Source: Hydrogenophilales bacterium (GTDB lineage Bacteria; Pseudomonadota; Gammaproteobacteria; Burkholderiales; Thiobacillaceae). From it: a stretch of 64,000 nt of DNA. A model generated the notes under the pieces. That model had not been told where the DNA came from and ran no database searches. It worked only from the letters and a program-made list of their open reading frames with translations. A program made the position numbers and the translations under genes. This document shows positions 3,141 through 62,626 of the stretch, piece after piece; position 1 is the stretch's first letter, and every line of letters begins with the position of its first letter. The stretch is taken from NCBI GenBank assembly GCA_023258975.1, contig JAHFRD010000001.1, positions 62,001-126,000 on the forward strand, in the 5' to 3' direction.

Positions 3141-3206
3141 GTAGCGCCGGCATCCTTGCCGGCCCGCGTGGCCAGACAAAGACGCCGGCAGGGATGCCGG
3201 CGCTAC
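3141..3206. repeat. REP-type palindrome, family A
   Basis: Imperfect inverted repeat beginning GTAGCGCCGGCATCCTTGCC and ending with the complementary ...GATGCCGGCGCTAC. The same outer arms (GTAGCGCCGGC / GCCGGCGCTAC) recur at 12228, 21034, 45181 and, degenerate, at 47215. It occupies most of the 109-bp gap between the iron ABC operon and the APH/kinase gene. It is probably a REP/BIME element that also folds as an RNA hairpin; there is no T-tract, so it is not called as a classical terminator. Confidence 0.8.
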
Positions 3207-12227: not shown

Positions 12228-12295
12228 GTAGCGCCGGCGTCTCGCCGGCTCGCTGTGCCAACCCGATGAACGAGCCGGCGAGACGCCGGCGCTAC
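12228..12295. repeat. REP-type palindrome, family A (perfect 25-bp arms)
   Basis: Arms starting GTAGCGCCGGCGTCTCGCCG pair perfectly over 25 bp with the right arm ending GACGCCGGCGCTAC, around an 18-bp loop. This is the most regular copy of the family seen at 3141, 21034, 45181 and 47215. It lies in the 311-bp gene-free stretch 12057-12367. The rest of that stretch is AT-rich to ~12210 (likely promoter region of the small repeat protein) and otherwise shows no gene. Confidence 0.85.
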
Positions 12296-21033: not shown

Positions 21034-21090
21034 TGTGGCGCCGGCGTCCCGCCGGCTTTTTTAAACAGCCGGCTGGAAGCCGGCGCTACA
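21034..21090. repeat. REP-type palindrome, family A, supplying a stop codon
   Basis: Arms GGCGCCGGCGTCCCGCCGGC and GCCGGCTGGAAGCCGGCGC fold around a short AT-rich loop containing TTTTTTAAA. On the minus strand the element begins T-GTAGCGCCGGC, and the TAG of that conserved end is the stop codon of the GT-like gene (21086-21088). It fills the whole 58-bp gap to the adenylating-enzyme gene. A shortened relative of the copies at 3141, 12228 and 45181. Confidence 0.75.
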
Positions 21091-29506: not shown

Positions 29507-29682
29507 AGTTGTACCCCCGGCTCGGGAAAAGCGCCCGAGCCACCCCCCGAGGGGGCCAAGTCAATCTTGGGACGGCCCGGCGATTGACTTGAGAGTTGTA
29601 CCCCCGGCTCGGGAAAAGCGCCCGAGCCACCCCCCGAGGGGGCCAGGTCAATCTTGGGACGGCCCGGCGATTGACTTGAGAG
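29507..29682. repeat. Two tandem 87-bp direct repeats
   Basis: Copy 1 is 29507-29593 and copy 2 is 29594-29680; the two differ at one base (CCAAGTCA versus CCAGGTCA). Each unit contains two hairpins: GGCTCGGG-AAAAGCG-CCCGAGCC and AGTCAATC ... GATTGACT. It fills the gap between merR and the GCS2-like gene on the minus strand. It is gene-free apart from a repetitive chance ORF. A tandem attenuator, transcript-stability element or recent duplication are possible readings. Confidence 0.85.
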
Positions 29683-45180: not shown

Positions 45181-45237
45181 GTAGCGCCGGCGTCTCGCCG
45201 GCGGGGTTGAAAGACGCCGGCAAGATGCCGGCGCTAC
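45181..45237. repeat. REP-type palindrome, family A
   Basis: Arms GTAGCGCCGGCGTCTCGCCG and ...GATGCCGGCGCTAC frame a loop with GGGTTGAAAG. It ends 12 bp before the PFOR start codon, next to its ribosome binding site (AAGGAG). Confidence 0.85.
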
Positions 45238-45249
45238 AAGGAGTCCACC

Positions 45250-48200
45250 ATGCCCCACCCCCGCACGCTGACCATCGACGGCAACGAAGCCGCCGCGCGT
45301 ACCGCCTACCTCTGCAACGAAATCATCGCCATCTACCCCATCACCCCCTCGTCCAACATGGGCGAATGGGCGGACGAATGGGCGTCCCGTGGCCGCCCCA
45401 ACCTCTGGGGCGCCACACCGAAGGTCATCGAAATGCAATCCGAGGGCGGCGCCGCCGGCGCCCTGCACGGCGCGCTCACCGCCGGCGCCCTGGCGACCAG
45501 TTTCACCGCCAGCCAGGGTCTGCTGTTGATGATTCCCAACCTGTACAAGATCGCCGGTGAACTCACGCCCTTCGTGCTGCACGTCGCGGCGCGGACGCTG
45601 GCCACCCATGCGCTGTCGATCTTCGGCGACCATTCCGACGTCATGGCCTGCCGTGGCACCGGGTTTTCATTACTCGCCGCCGGCAGCGTCCAGGAAGCGC
45701 ACGATTTCGCCCTGATCGCCCAGGCCGCGAGCCTCGCCGGGCGCATTCCCGTGCTGCATTTCTTCGACGGTTTCCGCACCTCGCATGAGGTCGCCAAGAT
45801 CGTCGAGGTCGAGCGCGACACGGTGCGGGCGATGATCGACGACGACCTGGTGGCCGCGCACCGTGGCCGCGCCCTGTCGCCGGAACATCCGGTGCTGCGC
45901 GGCACTTCGCAGAACCCGGATGTGTTCTTCCAGTCGCGCGAGCGCGCGAATCCTTTTTACGACGCCTTCCCCGGCATCATGCAGGCGGCGTTCGACCGCT
46001 TCGCCGGCCTCACCGGGCGCCAGTACAAACTGTTCGAGTATGTCGGCGCTCAAGACGCCGAGCGGGTCATCGTGCTCATGGGCTCCGGCGCGGAAACCGC
46101 GCACGAGACGGTGGAGCACCTCACCGCGCGCGGCGAGAAGGTCGGTGTGCTGAAAGCGCGCCTGTACCGCCCCTTCGACCCCGCCGCCCTGATCGCGGCG
46201 ATCCCGGAAACCGCCCGGGCCATCGCCGTGCTGGACCGCTGCAAGGAACCCGGCGCCGACGGAGAGCCCGTGTACAAGGACGTGCTGGGCGCCTTCGCCA
46301 ATGCTTCAGCCGATGGCCTTCGCGCCATGCCGCGCATCCTCGGCGGGCGTTACGGCCTGGCCTCCAAGGAATTCACGCCGGGCATGGTGAAGGCGGTGTT
46401 CGACGCCTTGCGCCCTCTCCCTCCGGGAGAGGGCCGGGGTGAGGGAACGGGCTGGTCTGACGAGACGGGGAAAGCCTCTCACCCCCAGCCCCTCTCCCGC
46501 CCACGGGCGAGGGGAGCGATCCGCCAGTTCACCATCGGCATCCACGACGACGTGACAAACCTCTCCCTGCCCTGGGACGCCACCTTCCGAAGCGACACCG
46601 CGAAGGCGCTGCATCACGCCGTGTTCTGGGGCCTGGGCGCGGACGGCACCGTGTCCGCCAACAAGAACTCGATCAAGATCATCGGCGAGGACACCGACCT
46701 CAACGCCCAGGGCTATTTCGTTTACGACTCGAAAAAGTCCGGCGCGGTCACCGTCTCGCATCTTCGCTTCGGCAAATCGCCGATCCGCTCCGCCTACCTG
46801 GTGGACGAGAACGACGCCGGCTTCGTCGCCTGCCACCAGACCGTGTTCACCGAACGTTACGACGTGCTGAGGCAGGCAAAGCCCGGGGGGGTGTTCCTGC
46901 TCAACACCGCCACACCGCCGGAAACCGCGCTGGACAGCCTGCCGGAAGCCCTGCGCCGCCAGATCGTCGAAAAGAACCTCGCGTTCTGGGTGATCGACGC
47001 CTACAAGGTCGCGGCGGACGCCGAAATGGGCCGCCGCATCAACACCATCATGCAGACCTGCTTCTTCGCCATCTCCGGCATCCTGCCGGCGGAGACGGCC
47101 ATCGCCGCGATCAAGCAGGCGGTGGACAAGACCTATGGCGTCAAAAGCAAACGCCTGGCCGACCTCAACCATCGCGCCATCGACATGACCCTGGCGCATC
47201 TGCACCAGGTCACTGTAGCGCCGGCGTCTCACCCACATCCGGCGTCAAATGCAGGCGAGGACGCCTGCGCTACAAACCCCGCACTTGTAACGCAGGCGTC
47301 CCGCCCGCCCCCTCCCGACTTCGTGCGCGACGTCACGCTGCCCATCTACGCCGGCCAGGGTGACCGCCTGCCGGTGTCGGCGATGCCGGCGGACGGTACC
47401 TGGCCGGTGGGCACGGCGAAATACGAGAAACGCAACATCGCCCTGGAAATCCCGGTGTGGGACGCCGCGCTGTGTACCCAATGCGGCAAGTGCGTGTTCG
47501 TCTGCCCGCATTCCGCCATCCGCGCCCGCGCCTTCCCTGCGGAGGCCGCGAACGGCGCGCCGGAAACCTTCAAGCACGTCCCGGCAAAGAGCAAGGATTA
47601 CCCGGCCGGCACCCACCTCGGCTACCAGGTGGCGCCGGAGGACTGCACCGGCTGCGGCGATTGCGTGGAAGCCTGCCCGATTCACGACAAATCCAACGTC
47701 TCGCACAAGGCGTTGAACATGGTCGCGCTGTTGCCGGAAAACGGGCCGCTACGCACGCGGGAGAGTGAAAACCTGGAATTCTTCCTCGCCCTGCCCGAGT
47801 TCGACCGCGACGCGATCAAGCACACCACCATTCCCGGCTCGATGCTGCTCGACCCGCTGTTCGAGTTTTCCGGCGCCTGCGCCGGTTGCGGCGAGACGCC
47901 CTACATCCGCCTCGCCACCCAGTTGTTCGGCGATCGCATGCTGATCGCCAACGCCACCGGCTGCTCCTCCATCTACGGCGGCAACCTGCCCACCACCCCC
48001 TACACGGTGAACCGCGACGGACGCGGCCCGGCCTGGTCCAACTCACTGTTCGAGGACAACGCCGAATTCGGCTTGGGGCTGCGTTTGGCGGCCGACCAGT
48101 TGATGGGCCACGCGCAAGGCCTGGTGAAGGAAATGGCCGTGGCAATCGGCGGCGACCTCGCCACAGCGCTGATCGACGCGGAACAACGCGAGGAAGCGGG

Positions 48201-48969
48201 CATTCGCGCGCAGCGCCGGCGAGTCACGCTGCTGCTGGAGAAACTGGCCGGCTCGACCCATCCGCGCGCCCGTCAACTCGCGGTGCTGGCGGAATGGCTG
48301 ATTCGCCGCTCGGTGTGGATCATCGGCGGCGACGGCTGGGCCTACGACATCGGCTACGGCGGCCTCGACCACGTCCTCGCCCTGCCCCACGACGTCAACA
48401 TCCTGGTACTGGATACCGAGGTGTACTCCAACACCGGCGGCCAGACTTCCAAGGCCACCCCCATCGGCGCCGTCGCCAAATTTTCGGCCGCCGGCAAGGC
48501 CACGGCGAAAAAGGATCTCGCCAAGCTGGCCTCGGATTACGGCCACGTCTATGTCGCCACCGCCGCCTATGGCGCCAAAGACACCCAAACCCTGCGCGTC
48601 TTCCACGAAGCGGAAAGTTTTGACGGCCCCTCGCTGATCGTCGCCTACAGCCCCTGCATCGCTCATGGCGTGGACCTGCTCCACAACCTGCGGCAACAGG
48701 ACGCGGCGGTGAAAAGTGGGCACTGGCCGCTGTTCCGCTTCGATCCGCGCCGCCTGGAAGCCGGCGACAACCCGTTCAAGCTGGACTCCGCCGCCCCCAG
48801 CCGGCCGATCCGCGAGTTCATGGAAAGCGAAACCCGTTTCGCCATGCTCGGCCGCAGCCACCCGGAAGCCGCCGAACGGTTCATGGCCGAGGCCCAATCG
48901 GTCGCGGACCGCCGCTACCAGAGTTATCTGGCGCTGGCGCAAATCGACCCGCCCAAAAAAGGAGACTGA
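45250..48969 (+). CDS. nifJ: Pyruvate:ferredoxin (flavodoxin) oxidoreductase, fused NifJ-type
   Basis: 1239-residue single-chain PFOR that interconverts pyruvate + CoA with acetyl-CoA + CO2 using ferredoxin. Order of domains: ThDP-binding POR alpha (residues ~1-385, TPSSNMGEWAD ~31-41), gamma domain (~430-640), EKR region, two 4Fe-4S motifs CTQCGKCVFVCPH (~744) and CTGCGDCVEACP (~800), cysteine C-A-G-C-G (~878), and the C-terminal ThDP domain with GGDGWAYDIGYGGLDH (~1025-1040). Two extra segments, about residues 388-425 and 656-685, coincide with palindromic REP-like DNA at 46413-46516 and 47215-47305 and are read in frame. This explains the length above the usual ~1170-1200. It is followed after 2 bp by a DHOD-like gene. 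Confidence 0.93.
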   Translation: MPHPRTLTIDGNEAAARTAYLCNEIIAIYPITPSSNMGEWADEWASRGRPNLWGATPKVIEMQSEGGAAGALHGALTAGALATSFTASQGLLLMIPNLYKIAGELTPFVLHVAARTLATHALSIFGDHSDVMACRGTGFSLLAAGSVQEAHDFALIAQAASLAGRIPVLHFFDGFRTSHEVAKIVEVERDTVRAMIDDDLVAAHRGRALSPEHPVLRGTSQNPDVFFQSRERANPFYDAFPGIMQAAFDRFAGLTGRQYKLFEYVGAQDAERVIVLMGSGAETAHETVEHLTARGEKVGVLKARLYRPFDPAALIAAIPETARAIAVLDRCKEPGADGEPVYKDVLGAFANASADGLRAMPRILGGRYGLASKEFTPGMVKAVFDALRPLPPGEGRGEGTGWSDETGKASHPQPLSRPRARGAIRQFTIGIHDDVTNLSLPWDATFRSDTAKALHHAVFWGLGADGTVSANKNSIKIIGEDTDLNAQGYFVYDSKKSGAVTVSHLRFGKSPIRSAYLVDENDAGFVACHQTVFTERYDVLRQAKPGGVFLLNTATPPETALDSLPEALRRQIVEKNLAFWVIDAYKVAADAEMGRRINTIMQTCFFAISGILPAETAIAAIKQAVDKTYGVKSKRLADLNHRAIDMTLAHLHQVTVAPASHPHPASNAGEDACATNPALVTQASRPPPPDFVRDVTLPIYAGQGDRLPVSAMPADGTWPVGTAKYEKRNIALEIPVWDAALCTQCGKCVFVCPHSAIRARAFPAEAANGAPETFKHVPAKSKDYPAGTHLGYQVAPEDCTGCGDCVEACPIHDKSNVSHKALNMVALLPENGPLRTRESENLEFFLALPEFDRDAIKHTTIPGSMLLDPLFEFSGACAGCGETPYIRLATQLFGDRMLIANATGCSSIYGGNLPTTPYTVNRDGRGPAWSNSLFEDNAEFGLGLRLAADQLMGHAQGLVKEMAVAIGGDLATALIDAEQREEAGIRAQRRRVTLLLEKLAGSTHPRARQLAVLAEWLIRRSVWIIGGDGWAYDIGYGGLDHVLALPHDVNILVLDTEVYSNTGGQTSKATPIGAVAKFSAAGKATAKKDLAKLASDYGHVYVATAAYGAKDTQTLRVFHEAESFDGPSLIVAYSPCIAHGVDLLHNLRQQDAAVKSGHWPLFRFDPRRLEAGDNPFKLDSAAPSRPIREFMESETRFAMLGRSHPEAAERFMAEAQSVADRRYQSYLALAQIDPPKKGD
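46413..46516. repeat. Palindromic repeat inside the PFOR gene (CTCTCCC type)
   Basis: CCCTCTCCCTCCGGGAGAGG is a hairpin with GGTGAGGG beyond it; its partner arm CCTCTCACCCCCAGCCCCTC followed by TCCCGCCCACGGGCGAGGGG completes a large palindromic unit. This is the well-known layout of a GC-rich REP/BIME element. It adds about 35 residues (LRPLPPGEGRGEGTG start) at the boundary of the POR-alpha and gamma domains. Confidence 0.75.
47215..47305. repeat. REP-type palindrome, family A, inside the PFOR gene
   Basis: GTAGCGCCGGCGTCTCACCC at the left and GGACGCCTGCGCTAC at 47259-47273, then GTAACGCAGGCGTCCCGCC. These are degenerate forms of the family A arms seen at 3141, 12228, 21034 and 45181. It encodes about 30 Pro/Ala-rich residues between the EKR region and the ferredoxin domain, so it sits at a second domain boundary. 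Confidence 0.7.
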
Positions 48970-59731: not shown

Positions 59732-62626
59732 CTATCGTTCCTCCTCCATCGCCAGCAGGATCAGCGGCATGGCGCCCATATTCGTGACAAGGCGGCGGGC
59801 GTTGAGCAGCATCCTGCACCGGCCGATGGCGGGGAATTCGTGTTCCACCGCGTAGCTCTCGAAGCTCTGGTCGCGCGGCAGGACGACTTCCAGCAATTCG
59901 CGCAGGCGCGGGATGTCCCACTGGCCGTTGCCCAGTTCGTACAGCGCTTGCCCGACGGTATTGCCCGCCGTGGTCTTGAAGCGTTGGTAAAAGGCGCGGC
60001 TGGCGCGCACCACGCGCAGGCCGCCGTCCAGCACCACCAGGGGTTCGCGCACGGTATCGACGATGGCGTCGGCCAGTTCGCGCGCTTCCCGCACCGCCGT
60101 TTCGGCGACGACGCGCGTGCTGATGTCGGTGAAGGTGAGCACCACGCCCTCGATCACGTTGTCCAGGGTGCGGTAGGGCTGGATGCGCGCCAGATAGACG
60201 GCGCCGCCGACGGTATGAACCTCGCGTTCGCTGGGCACCAGGGTATCGAGCACCACACTGGCCTCGGCCAGCAGGTCTTCGCCTTCGAGGTCGGATTTGA
60301 TGTCGGATAGCGAGCGCCCCACGTCGGTCGCCACGAGTCGGTAGGCCCGCGCCGCCTCGCGGGTGAAACGGCGTATCTGGAGATGCGGGTCGAGGAAGAT
60401 GGTGCCGACCTGGATGTTGTCGAGCAGGTTCTTCATGTCGTTCTGCATGCCGGCCAGTTGCTCAATCTTGGCCTGCAGTTCGGCGTTCACCGTGATGAGT
60501 TCCTCGTTCACCGATTGCAATTCCTCCTTGGAGGTCTCCAGTTCCTCGTTGGTGGATTGCAATTCTTCGTTGGTGGATTGCAACTCCTCGTTGGTGGATT
60601 TGAGTTCCTCGTTGGAGGCTTGTTGCTCCTCGATGGTGGCTTGCAGGTTTTCCTTGGTGTATGCCAGTTCCCGCTCCAGTTCCTCGACGCGCGGCGAGGC
60701 GCCGGCGGCGGCGCGTTTGCCGCGCGCGGGTTTTTTGTGGCTGGGATGCGGCAGATCCTGAAATGTGATGAGGAGCAACCCCTCCCCGGTATCCGGGTCG
60801 GGCAGCGGGCGAACACTGAGGCTGACGGGCTGGAAATCGCCGTTGGTCTTGACCAGTACCTCGCGGTTCAGGGTGGGCTTGGACTCGGCGCCCGGCAAGG
60901 AGGCGCGCAGTTGCAGTTGCAGGCCCTCGCGCGCCATGTCGATTACATTCAGGCTGGCCTGGCCGGGCGCCGGGCGCAGGTATTTGCCGGTATCGCCATG
61001 CACGAACAGGAGGTTGCCCTTGAGATCGGTGACCACCGAGGCGGGCGCATAGGACTGAAGCAGCACGCGCCGGGTGAGCTCCGCGAAATTCGTTTCCTTG
61101 GCCTGTTTCACGGTTTCCTCCGCAGCCTTGCCGCCACTGGCCACCGCCCAGGACAGGCCGCCGGCCATCACCGCGCGGGTGGAGGCCGCCGAGTGGGTGG
61201 CGCGGTAGAACTTCCACTTGCGGCTCAGGGCCATGAACAGTTCGGGGTGGTTGCCGATGCTCTCCGAGGGCGACAGGAACAGCACGCCGCCGGATTTCAA
61301 GGCGTAATGGAAGGCCGGCAGCAGGCGGTGTTGCAGTTCCGGTTCCAGATAGATCATCAGATTGCGGCAACTGAGCAGGTCGAGCCGGGTGAAAGGCGGA
61401 TCCTTGATGACGTTCTGAATGGCGAACACCACCATCTCGCGGATTTCCTTCTTCACACGGTAACCGGCGTCTTCCTTGAGGAAGTAGCGGCGCAGTCGTT
61501 CCGGCGTCACATCGGCGGCGATGTTGGGCGGGTACAGGCCGGCGCGGGCGAGCGCGATGGCGTCGTCGTCGAGGTCGGTGGCATAGAGCTGAACCTTGAA
61601 TTCCTGGTGGTGCTTGTCCCACCACTCGTCCATGAACTCGCGCAGCAGGATGGCGATGGAATAAGCCTCCTCGCCGCTGGCGCAGCCGGCCACCCAGACG
61701 CGAAACACGTAGCCCTCCGGCTTGTCGGCGAACAATTGCGGCAGGATGTCCTGCTTGAGGGTGGCGAACGCCTCCGGGTCGCGGAAGAAGTTGGTGACGT
61801 TGATGAGCAGTTCCTTGAACAGAATCTGCAGTTCAGCCGGATGCTCCTTCAGGTAGCGGGCATAGAGATCGCTGTCGTTGAGGTCGTGCTGCGCCATGCG
61901 CCGCTCGATGCGGCGGCCGATGGTGCTTTTCTTGTACAGCGAGAAATCGTGGCCGGTGCCGGCGCGCAACAGCATCAGGATGCGGTTCATGCCGCCGGCC
62001 GGGGTAGCGGGCGGCATGGCCTGTTCCCGAGGCGTCGGCGACGCGGCCAGGCGCGGAAGCGCTTCCGGCATCCTGTCCGGCGCCAACACCTGGGTGGCGT
62101 AACCGGCCTGCAGGGCGCTGCTCGGCATGCCGTCGTATTTCGCCGTGGCCGGTTCCTGCACCAGAGTGACGCCGCCGGCGCCGAGGATGGCGCGCAAGCC
62201 CAGAGTGCCGTCGGTGCCGGTGCCGGAGAGGATGACGCCGATGGCGCGCTCACCCTGATCCTCGGCCAGGGAACGCAGGAAGGCGTCGATCGGCATGCGC
62301 TGCCCGCGCGGCGCCTCCGGCACGGAGAGTTGCAACACGCCGTGGAAGATCGCCATGTCGCGGTTGGGCGGCAGGACATAGACATGATTGGCCGCCACGG
62401 GCGTCTGATCCAGCGCCTCCACCACCGGCATGGGTGTGCTGCGTTGCAGGATTTCCGTGAGCAGGCTGGCGTGATCCGGATCGAGATGCGGCACCAGCAC
62501 GAAGGCCATGCCGCTGTCGGCCGGCACGTTGCGGAAAAACTGCTCGAACGCTTCCAATCCGCCGGCGGACGCGCCCAATGCGACGATGGGAAAGGGAGTG
62601 GAGGGAGTTTGGGTCTGTGCGGCCAT
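59732..62626 (-). CDS. CheB-CheR fusion with PAS domain (chemotaxis methylesterase/methyltransferase)
   Basis: 964-residue chimeric protein. N-terminal CheB-type methylesterase with VALGASAGG (Ser20) and GTGTDGTLG (~135-143, Asp). The CheR methyltransferase follows with its helical N-domain and SAM fold (about 220-490; VWVAGCASGEEAYS ~309-322). After a PAS-like module comes a coiled coil (about residues 660-720) of NEELKST / NEELQST repeats, then a final PAS domain. No receiver domain or other che gene is nearby, so this is likely an orphan sensory regulator, not the classical adaptation pair. Confidence 0.87.
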   Translation of the reverse strand: MAAQTQTPSTPFPIVALGASAGGLEAFEQFFRNVPADSGMAFVLVPHLDPDHASLLTEILQRSTPMPVVEALDQTPVAANHVYVLPPNRDMAIFHGVLQLSVPEAPRGQRMPIDAFLRSLAEDQGERAIGVILSGTGTDGTLGLRAILGAGGVTLVQEPATAKYDGMPSSALQAGYATQVLAPDRMPEALPRLAASPTPREQAMPPATPAGGMNRILMLLRAGTGHDFSLYKKSTIGRRIERRMAQHDLNDSDLYARYLKEHPAELQILFKELLINVTNFFRDPEAFATLKQDILPQLFADKPEGYVFRVWVAGCASGEEAYSIAILLREFMDEWWDKHHQEFKVQLYATDLDDDAIALARAGLYPPNIAADVTPERLRRYFLKEDAGYRVKKEIREMVVFAIQNVIKDPPFTRLDLLSCRNLMIYLEPELQHRLLPAFHYALKSGGVLFLSPSESIGNHPELFMALSRKWKFYRATHSAASTRAVMAGGLSWAVASGGKAAEETVKQAKETNFAELTRRVLLQSYAPASVVTDLKGNLLFVHGDTGKYLRPAPGQASLNVIDMAREGLQLQLRASLPGAESKPTLNREVLVKTNGDFQPVSLSVRPLPDPDTGEGLLLITFQDLPHPSHKKPARGKRAAAGASPRVEELERELAYTKENLQATIEEQQASNEELKSTNEELQSTNEELQSTNEELETSKEELQSVNEELITVNAELQAKIEQLAGMQNDMKNLLDNIQVGTIFLDPHLQIRRFTREAARAYRLVATDVGRSLSDIKSDLEGEDLLAEASVVLDTLVPSEREVHTVGGAVYLARIQPYRTLDNVIEGVVLTFTDISTRVVAETAVREARELADAIVDTVREPLVVLDGGLRVVRASRAFYQRFKTTAGNTVGQALYELGNGQWDIPRLRELLEVVLPRDQSFESYAVEHEFPAIGRCRMLLNARRLVTNMGAMPLILLAMEEER

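Follow-up and report, generated by a model that had tools for sequence, protein, structure and literature searches.

The pyruvate:ferredoxin (flavodoxin) oxidoreductase (PFOR) gene described here stays open across two palindromic repeats of different kinds. How does an enzyme come to hold such repeats within its reading frame, and why at these places? We examined the gene in the 64-kb stretch of DNA that was analyzed (the window), in its own genome (G000), and in relatives.

Two palindromic repeats lie in frame in the PFOR gene

The predicted protein scored 1636 bits against TIGR02176 (curated cutoff, 911.35), and its Pfam domains follow the order expected of a PFOR (POR_N, PFOR_II, POR, EKR, Fer4). 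The initial annotation had reported an uninterrupted reading frame containing two palindromes, and we recovered the frame, its length, and both palindromes at the positions that it gave (Table 1). It had assigned the second insert to the boundary between EKR and the ferredoxin domain. Pfam instead places PFOR_II at residues 270-356, POR at 463-646, EKR at 687-731, and the start of the ferredoxin domain at 734, so that insert 2 falls between POR and EKR. Upon alignment to the solved PFOR 6cin, the match halted at window residue 392 and restarted at residue 425.

Table 1. Positions of the PFOR gene, of the repeats in and around it, and of the candidate class A transposase gene
Feature	Position	Strand	Remarks
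Class A repeat pair	3141..3206	.	Elsewhere in window
Class A repeat pair	12228..12295	.	Elsewhere in window; 27-nt arms, 100% complementary
Class A repeat pair	21035..21089	.	Elsewhere in window
Class A repeat pair	45181..45237	+	Just 5' of PFOR; end abuts AAGGAG (45238-45243), 6 bases before ATG
PFOR gene	45250..48969	+	1239 aa; ORF open throughout
Class D palindromic repeat (CCCTCTCCC..GGGAGAGGG plus second arm)	46413..46516	+	In frame; linker 1, between PFOR core domain II and POR (gamma)
Class A (GTAG-tagged) repeat, three arms	47215..47305	+	In frame; linker 2, between POR and EKR; arms at 47215-47228, 47260-47273, and 47287-47300
RAYT inside family-4 uracil-DNA glycosylase (UDG) gene	L213:288-1703 (G000 contig C14)	-	Also in L214, L215, L216, and L217

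We defined linker 1 as the span between window residues 380 and 430 and linker 2 as that between residues 640 and 700. Compared with the PFOR of L018, linker 1 of the window shows a net gain of about 31 residues. Linker 2 has 61 residues, a net gain of about 14 over the median of 84 other PFORs (47). The total is about 45 residues, not the roughly 70 counted in the initial annotation, because part of the old linker was lost. Both inserts fold more strongly than their shuffled versions (z = -3.25 and -5.58, compared with 0.65 for another stretch of PFOR). A predicted structure of residues 360-760 was weak overall (mean pLDDT, 63; pTM, 0.65), with a confident POR core and most of both inserts at pLDDT <50 and without regular structure; since other stretches scored equally low, it supports little.

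The inserts belong to repeat families of the genome

We then looked for both repeats in the window and in the 3.6-Mb genome. With 1 mismatch allowed to the class A core (GTAGCGCNGGCNTC), the window holds 11 class A arms, compared with 0.48 expected from shuffles. They form five loci, including the PFOR insert and one pair directly upstream of PFOR, which adjoins a likely ribosome-binding site. The exact core occurs 234 times in G000 (reversed-pattern control, 4). Class A has the features of GTAG-tagged REPs, with GTAG at one palindrome end, paired arms, and a high copy number. It is also mostly intergenic: in 788 kb of G000, 28 of 42 loci were intergenic, 6 lay at gene edges, and 8 in called genes, a split that rests on a crude gene caller.

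The class D pattern (CCTCTCCCN{2,10}GGGAGAGG) matched 19 copies in G000 (reversed-pattern control, 0), so both classes are multicopy in their own genome. The window copy, read by eye, begins GC-CCTCTCCCTCC.. and has neither the GTAG nor the CGTC tag; class D is therefore called a palindromic repeat here and not a GTAG/CGTC REP. Both classes had been said to lie between genes elsewhere in the window. This is true of class A, found at four other loci, but class D occurs once in the 64-kb window even with 2 mismatches allowed, as PFOR's own copy, which rules it out as a neighbor repeat of the window.

Chance likeness between inserts and repeats was ruled out by these copy counts together with the controls. 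Reversed patterns of five classes gave 0 matches, except for class D in G015 (one match per strand), and the shorter class A pattern gave 0 to 4 per strand. Nor do the repeats appear to be shaped for translatability: among seven copies, 2 to 6 of the 6 frames were open, which is not above composition shuffles (lowest P, 0.053). Judged from the sequence, both PFOR inserts are copies, predicted to be translated, of the genome's own repeated palindromes.

The window contains two further repeats of other kinds. Positions 29507-29680 hold two 87-bp tandem units that are 99% alike, and on the minus strand 21-nt tandem repeats at 60458-60667 encode NEELQ-type coiled-coil repeats in an ORF that is presumably CheB/CheR-like.

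The two linkers carry different repeats in relatives

We searched 121 genomes (the window's own and 120 relatives) and found PFOR or kin in 81. The PFORs that we read were that of the window, 29 loci from the genome search, 80 named loci (some of them duplicates), and 20 further stretches; a few were incomplete. The best close matches were records labeled Zoogloea, Thiobacillus, and Burkholderiales, plus a proteobacterium record, which puts the window's genus close to the Rhodocyclales.

Linker 1 measures 20 to 21 residues in the 84 other PFORs. In close relatives it reaches 57 residues, and linker 2 reaches 69. Lengthening of linker 1 was seen in 10 of 34 close PFORs versus 0 of 84 others, and that of linker 2 in 20 of 34 versus 4 of 84; L022, the frame of which is broken, was left out of the length count. 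Gains of at least 5 residues in the 34 close PFORs were confined to these two linkers, besides three rows at the C terminus. Linker 2 of L037, with 52 residues and no recognizable repeat, indicates that length alone does not mean a repeat.

Paired palindromes of six classes were seen in the linker DNA: A (GTAGCGCNGGC), B (CCCCCTTTnnnAAAGGGGG), C (GTCATTCCGGC..GCCGGAATCCAG), D, E (GTAGGTCGGCAA..TTGCCGAC), and G (GTAGCCCGGATG..AATCCGGG). In linker 2, where classes were assigned by eye, 20 PFORs have a clear class: A in six (the window, L010, L012, L018, L019, and L020), B in three (L011, L021, which also has D, and L025), C in five (L014, L022, L023, L036, and L070), D in three (L027, L030, and L155), E in two (L028 and L032), and G in one (L029). 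Remnants were seen in L024, L034, and L164. Within the window's genus, 20 genomes have a readable linker 2, of which 16 contain a clear repeat, 3 a remnant, and 1 (G003) none; the G003 genome has zero matches to any of the six class patterns. Linker 1 carries class D, whole or partial, in the window, L010, L011, L012, L014, L022, and L027, and an imperfect palindrome recognized by eye (class F) in L013, L015, and L016. The PFOR of L022 (G015 contig C25:50002-55530) is out of frame, with the break inside the class D insert of linker 1, and this break may be a sequencing error.

Among the nearest relatives of the window PFOR, linker 1 is short or has another palindrome and linker 2 contains palindromes; the refuting case named in the initial annotation, the same extra residues without palindromic DNA, was not seen. 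The earlier proposal that the linkers tolerate extra residues and that REP insertion lengthens proteins is supported by the existence of close relatives with short linkers and by the restriction of internal gains to the two linkers. Overall, the observation in the initial annotation is partly confirmed and its interpretation partly supported.

Two cyanobacterial records also drew our attention. In a Nostoc record (L148, 6551-6607), linker 2 of PFOR has two GACGCGATTAATCGCGTC palindromes, a palindrome that is present in L148 only among 292 loci, and in another Nostoc (L121) it has a tandem heptamer. The Nostoc PFOR linkers are possibly an independent cyanobacterial case.

Linker content turns over and follows each genome's repeats

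To follow linker 2 through descent, we used a quick maximum-likelihood tree of 52 PFORs with the linker columns removed (24 of 49 inner branches starred, 14 open). Linker 2 changed state at least 13 times on this tree when the 3 remnants were left out and 17 times when they were counted as their class; among the 20 clear rows, its class changed at least 9 times. Several sisters differ, namely L010 (A) and L011 (B), L030 (D) and L032 (E), and L021 (B plus D) and L022 (C), on branches with SH-aLRT values of 98 to 99. Such class changes between sisters rule out one ancestral insertion for all. The window, L010, and L018 have one common three-arm class A arrangement in linker 2, which shows the insertion to be inherited and makes events fewer than genomes. 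In linker 1, the class D copies of the window, L010, and L011, with just 57 to 67% likeness over the part aligned (flanks included), also speak against a single insertion.

We counted the six classes in 28 genomes, chosen from the 121 and from two more to which named loci had led, using patterns that were composed after the linkers had been viewed and that differ in sensitivity. In 14 of the 20 genomes scored, the class with the most copies among the six was the one found in linker 2, and 19 of the 20 carry their linker 2 class beyond the PFOR copies. When classes were shuffled among the 20 genomes, the observed agreement was reached in 0 of 20000 permutations, and in 4 of 20000 without the A clade (14 genomes); as the genomes are related, these counts overstate independence. 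Two genomes speak against a strict link with abundance: G002 has class E in its linker and no further class E match by pattern, and G070 has 42 class C and 14 class D matches and a repeat-free linker 2.

The PFOR core is under purifying selection, with dN/dS values of 0.083 to 0.166 (8 pairs). Between the inserts of L010 and L018, a +1/-1 pair of indels shifts the middle frame, which is restored downstream, indicating that the frame is held and not the peptide sequence.

Repeats of the same classes occur in other genes

The initial annotation had assumed that REPs almost always avoid coding DNA. We surveyed the six classes in 788 kb of G000 plus 220 kb of G020 (1.008 Mb in all) and found 80 repeat loci. 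According to a crude codon-usage gene caller, 52 of them were intergenic, 11 at gene edges, 13 in genes with a two-sided coding signal, and 4 in genes with a weaker signal. Thus, 17 of the 80 loci lie inside called genes, although single-arm class A matches may be due to chance (control, 4 in the 3.6-Mb genome). With 88 to 90% of the sample called coding, intragenic repeats are depleted but not rare. The PFOR linkers account for 4 of the 17; the other genes include those for a GGDEF protein, an RND pump, a radical SAM protein, HypF, and glycerate kinase. The inserted residues are missing from solved homologues of glycerate kinase and HypF.

Filling of the same site is no peculiarity of PFOR, as shown by glycerate kinase and PgeF (Cu-oxidase_4), which we examined in 26 genomes. 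One place in glycerate kinase holds class A twice in G000, class D in G020, and a single class A arm in G006, and 16 other aligned genomes have three residues there. In PgeF, class B occurs in four genomes (G000, G020, G018, and G015), G011 carries a different GTAG-tagged palindrome, and G030 has a stretch resembling class D. The glycerate kinase gene of G000 (L203:17184-18491, contig C5) includes a 56-residue class A stretch, and its coding signal is lost close to the C-terminal end; this predicted gene either is broken or contains a sequence error.

A candidate transposase for class A sits inside a uracil-DNA glycosylase gene

All 7 A-rich genomes contain one type of REP-associated tyrosine transposase (RAYT) that was absent from the 9 other genomes searched. 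It is flanked by class A arms in G000 and in other A-rich genomes. An NCBIfam run, on L213 and L214 only, gave matches to NF047646 of 78.6 bits in G000, just below the cutoff of 80, and 82.7 bits in G011. The protein contains the sequence MPNHVHLLL, which we take to be its HUH motif. The RAYT lies in frame in the UDG gene, after a short N-terminal piece and ahead of the catalytic domain, and is surrounded by in-frame class A arms. We read the UDG part in 5 of the 7 A-rich genomes; L218 and L219 reach contig ends first. The dN/dS values were 0.059 to 0.25 for the RAYT part and 0.10 to 0.19 for the UDG, and in G000 the RAYT is more diverged at synonymous sites than its UDG. Our literature search returned no paper joining a tyrosine transposase, a uracil-DNA glycosylase, and REP.

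Tolerant linkers as proposed recurrent targets of mobile repeats

The inserts in PFOR are members of repeat families and lie in frame, the same places are occupied again and again by different classes, and the core of the protein is under purifying selection. With different palindrome families at the same spots and the frame nearly always kept, the linkers behave as reusable parking places for selfish DNA. We propose, with a probability of roughly 0.8, that non-autonomous palindromic repeats moved into PFOR, that frame-keeping, stop-free copies between domains survived, and that the tolerant linkers were hit repeatedly as their content turned over. Repeat families of several unrelated classes would spread through genomes and land widely. 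Copies in genes would mostly vanish, and the survivors would be those located between domains that keep the frame and are read through without a stop. In PFOR, the POR/EKR linker and, less often, the linker between domain II and POR would be the tolerated places, and each lineage would display the class active in its own genome. Class A may be moved by its RAYT, the candidate mover, and the other classes are presumably mobile as well. The linker sequence is probably neutral, and older copies would decay or be displaced by insertion plus deletion, perhaps between palindrome arms.

The linker DNA might instead be a mechanistic hotspot for insertion, through microhomology, secondary structure, or replication strand, with protein tolerance secondary. 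By eye, inserts begin within a few codons 3' of conserved HQV codons; in several rows, the class D repeat of linker 1 begins just after GCCTTGC/GCCCTGC-like codons. Exact insert starts nevertheless differ between rows, and unrelated classes (GTAG-tagged, CGTC-like, and untagged) share the place, as they also do in glycerate kinase and PgeF; such sharing implicates the protein and not one transposase. We consider such a hotspot unlikely.

A bolder alternative is that palindromes at the POR/EKR boundary, whatever their family, are favored and not just tolerated: the hairpin would act in translation or on the DNA, and lineages would swap repeats such that the hairpin stays while sequence and peptide change. 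We find this quite improbable. Much the same can be said, with slightly less credence still, of the general idea that an mRNA hairpin or DNA palindrome between domain-coding segments is useful, for instance in pausing translation for folding, and that any class serves. The replacement of classes at one place and the strong folding of both inserts fit this idea, as do the copies of L022 and L023, which match the class C pattern without mismatch, and that of L032, which does so for class E. It accords poorly with the window class A copy, decayed in its first pair, with the internal indels of L012, with the open PFORs of G003 and several others that have a repeat-free linker, and with the lack of a long linker in at least 79 of the 84 other PFORs.

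An assembly artifact is barely conceivable: carriers are mostly multicontig genomes and the named close matches with inserts are MAGs, but in all 20 rows (save for the other linker of L022) the repeat has in-frame PFOR homology on either side, a false join within a repeat would not leave PFOR on both sides, and the same arrangement recurs in separate genomes.

If mobile repeats did enter tolerant linkers in this way, the locus would amount to a natural replicate experiment on the entry of selfish repeats into proteins, with one enzyme, two linkers, many lineages, unrelated families, and empty sites. It shows which protein positions accept 15 to 35 foreign residues, with the frame rather than the sequence being kept. 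The amino acid sequence of a linker can be set by whichever repeat families inhabit the genome.

Comparison with known systems

A literature search on PFOR or nifJ with palindromes, which covered few subscription papers, gave nothing relevant by title and abstract. As in other REP/RAYT systems (NF047646, Y1_Tnp), class A repeats flank the RAYT gene; the difference is that the class A RAYT sits in frame inside a uracil-DNA glycosylase gene.

Rickettsia palindromic elements (RPEs) are described, in the parts of two reviews available to us (PMC10969869 and PMC2229807), as translated in frame inside many conserved genes, and a guanylate kinase with an insert is reported there to be active. The PFOR inserts appear to resemble RPEs as palindromic repeats in frame in a conserved gene, in mode of occurrence only. 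According to the same parts of these reviews, RPEs measure ~100 to 150 bp and belong to one genus of intracellular bacteria, whereas the repeats here are shorter and of REP type, come from several families, occur in betaproteobacterial relatives, and replace one another at the same site.

The closest likeness is with the intragenic GTAG/CGTC REPs of Di Nocera et al. 2013 (PMC3733652). Its main text reports that these REPs, often dimers, occur in frame inside ORFs and are thought to be tolerated in linkers, and that different REPs lie at about the same recB site in two Xanthomonas species. The main text has no pyruvate, nifJ, or ferredoxin (its ORF list is Additional file 3). GTAG-tagged palindromes in frame within ORFs are common to both systems, but the copies of classes B and D that we read have neither tag. 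Intragenic REPs in frame and one species pair sharing a site (recB) are thus already in print, and recurrent multifamily turnover at one protein site adds to them: compared with what that main text describes, no fewer than six classes fill one enzyme site here, across a genus and its kin, and the class is tied to each genome's repeat load.
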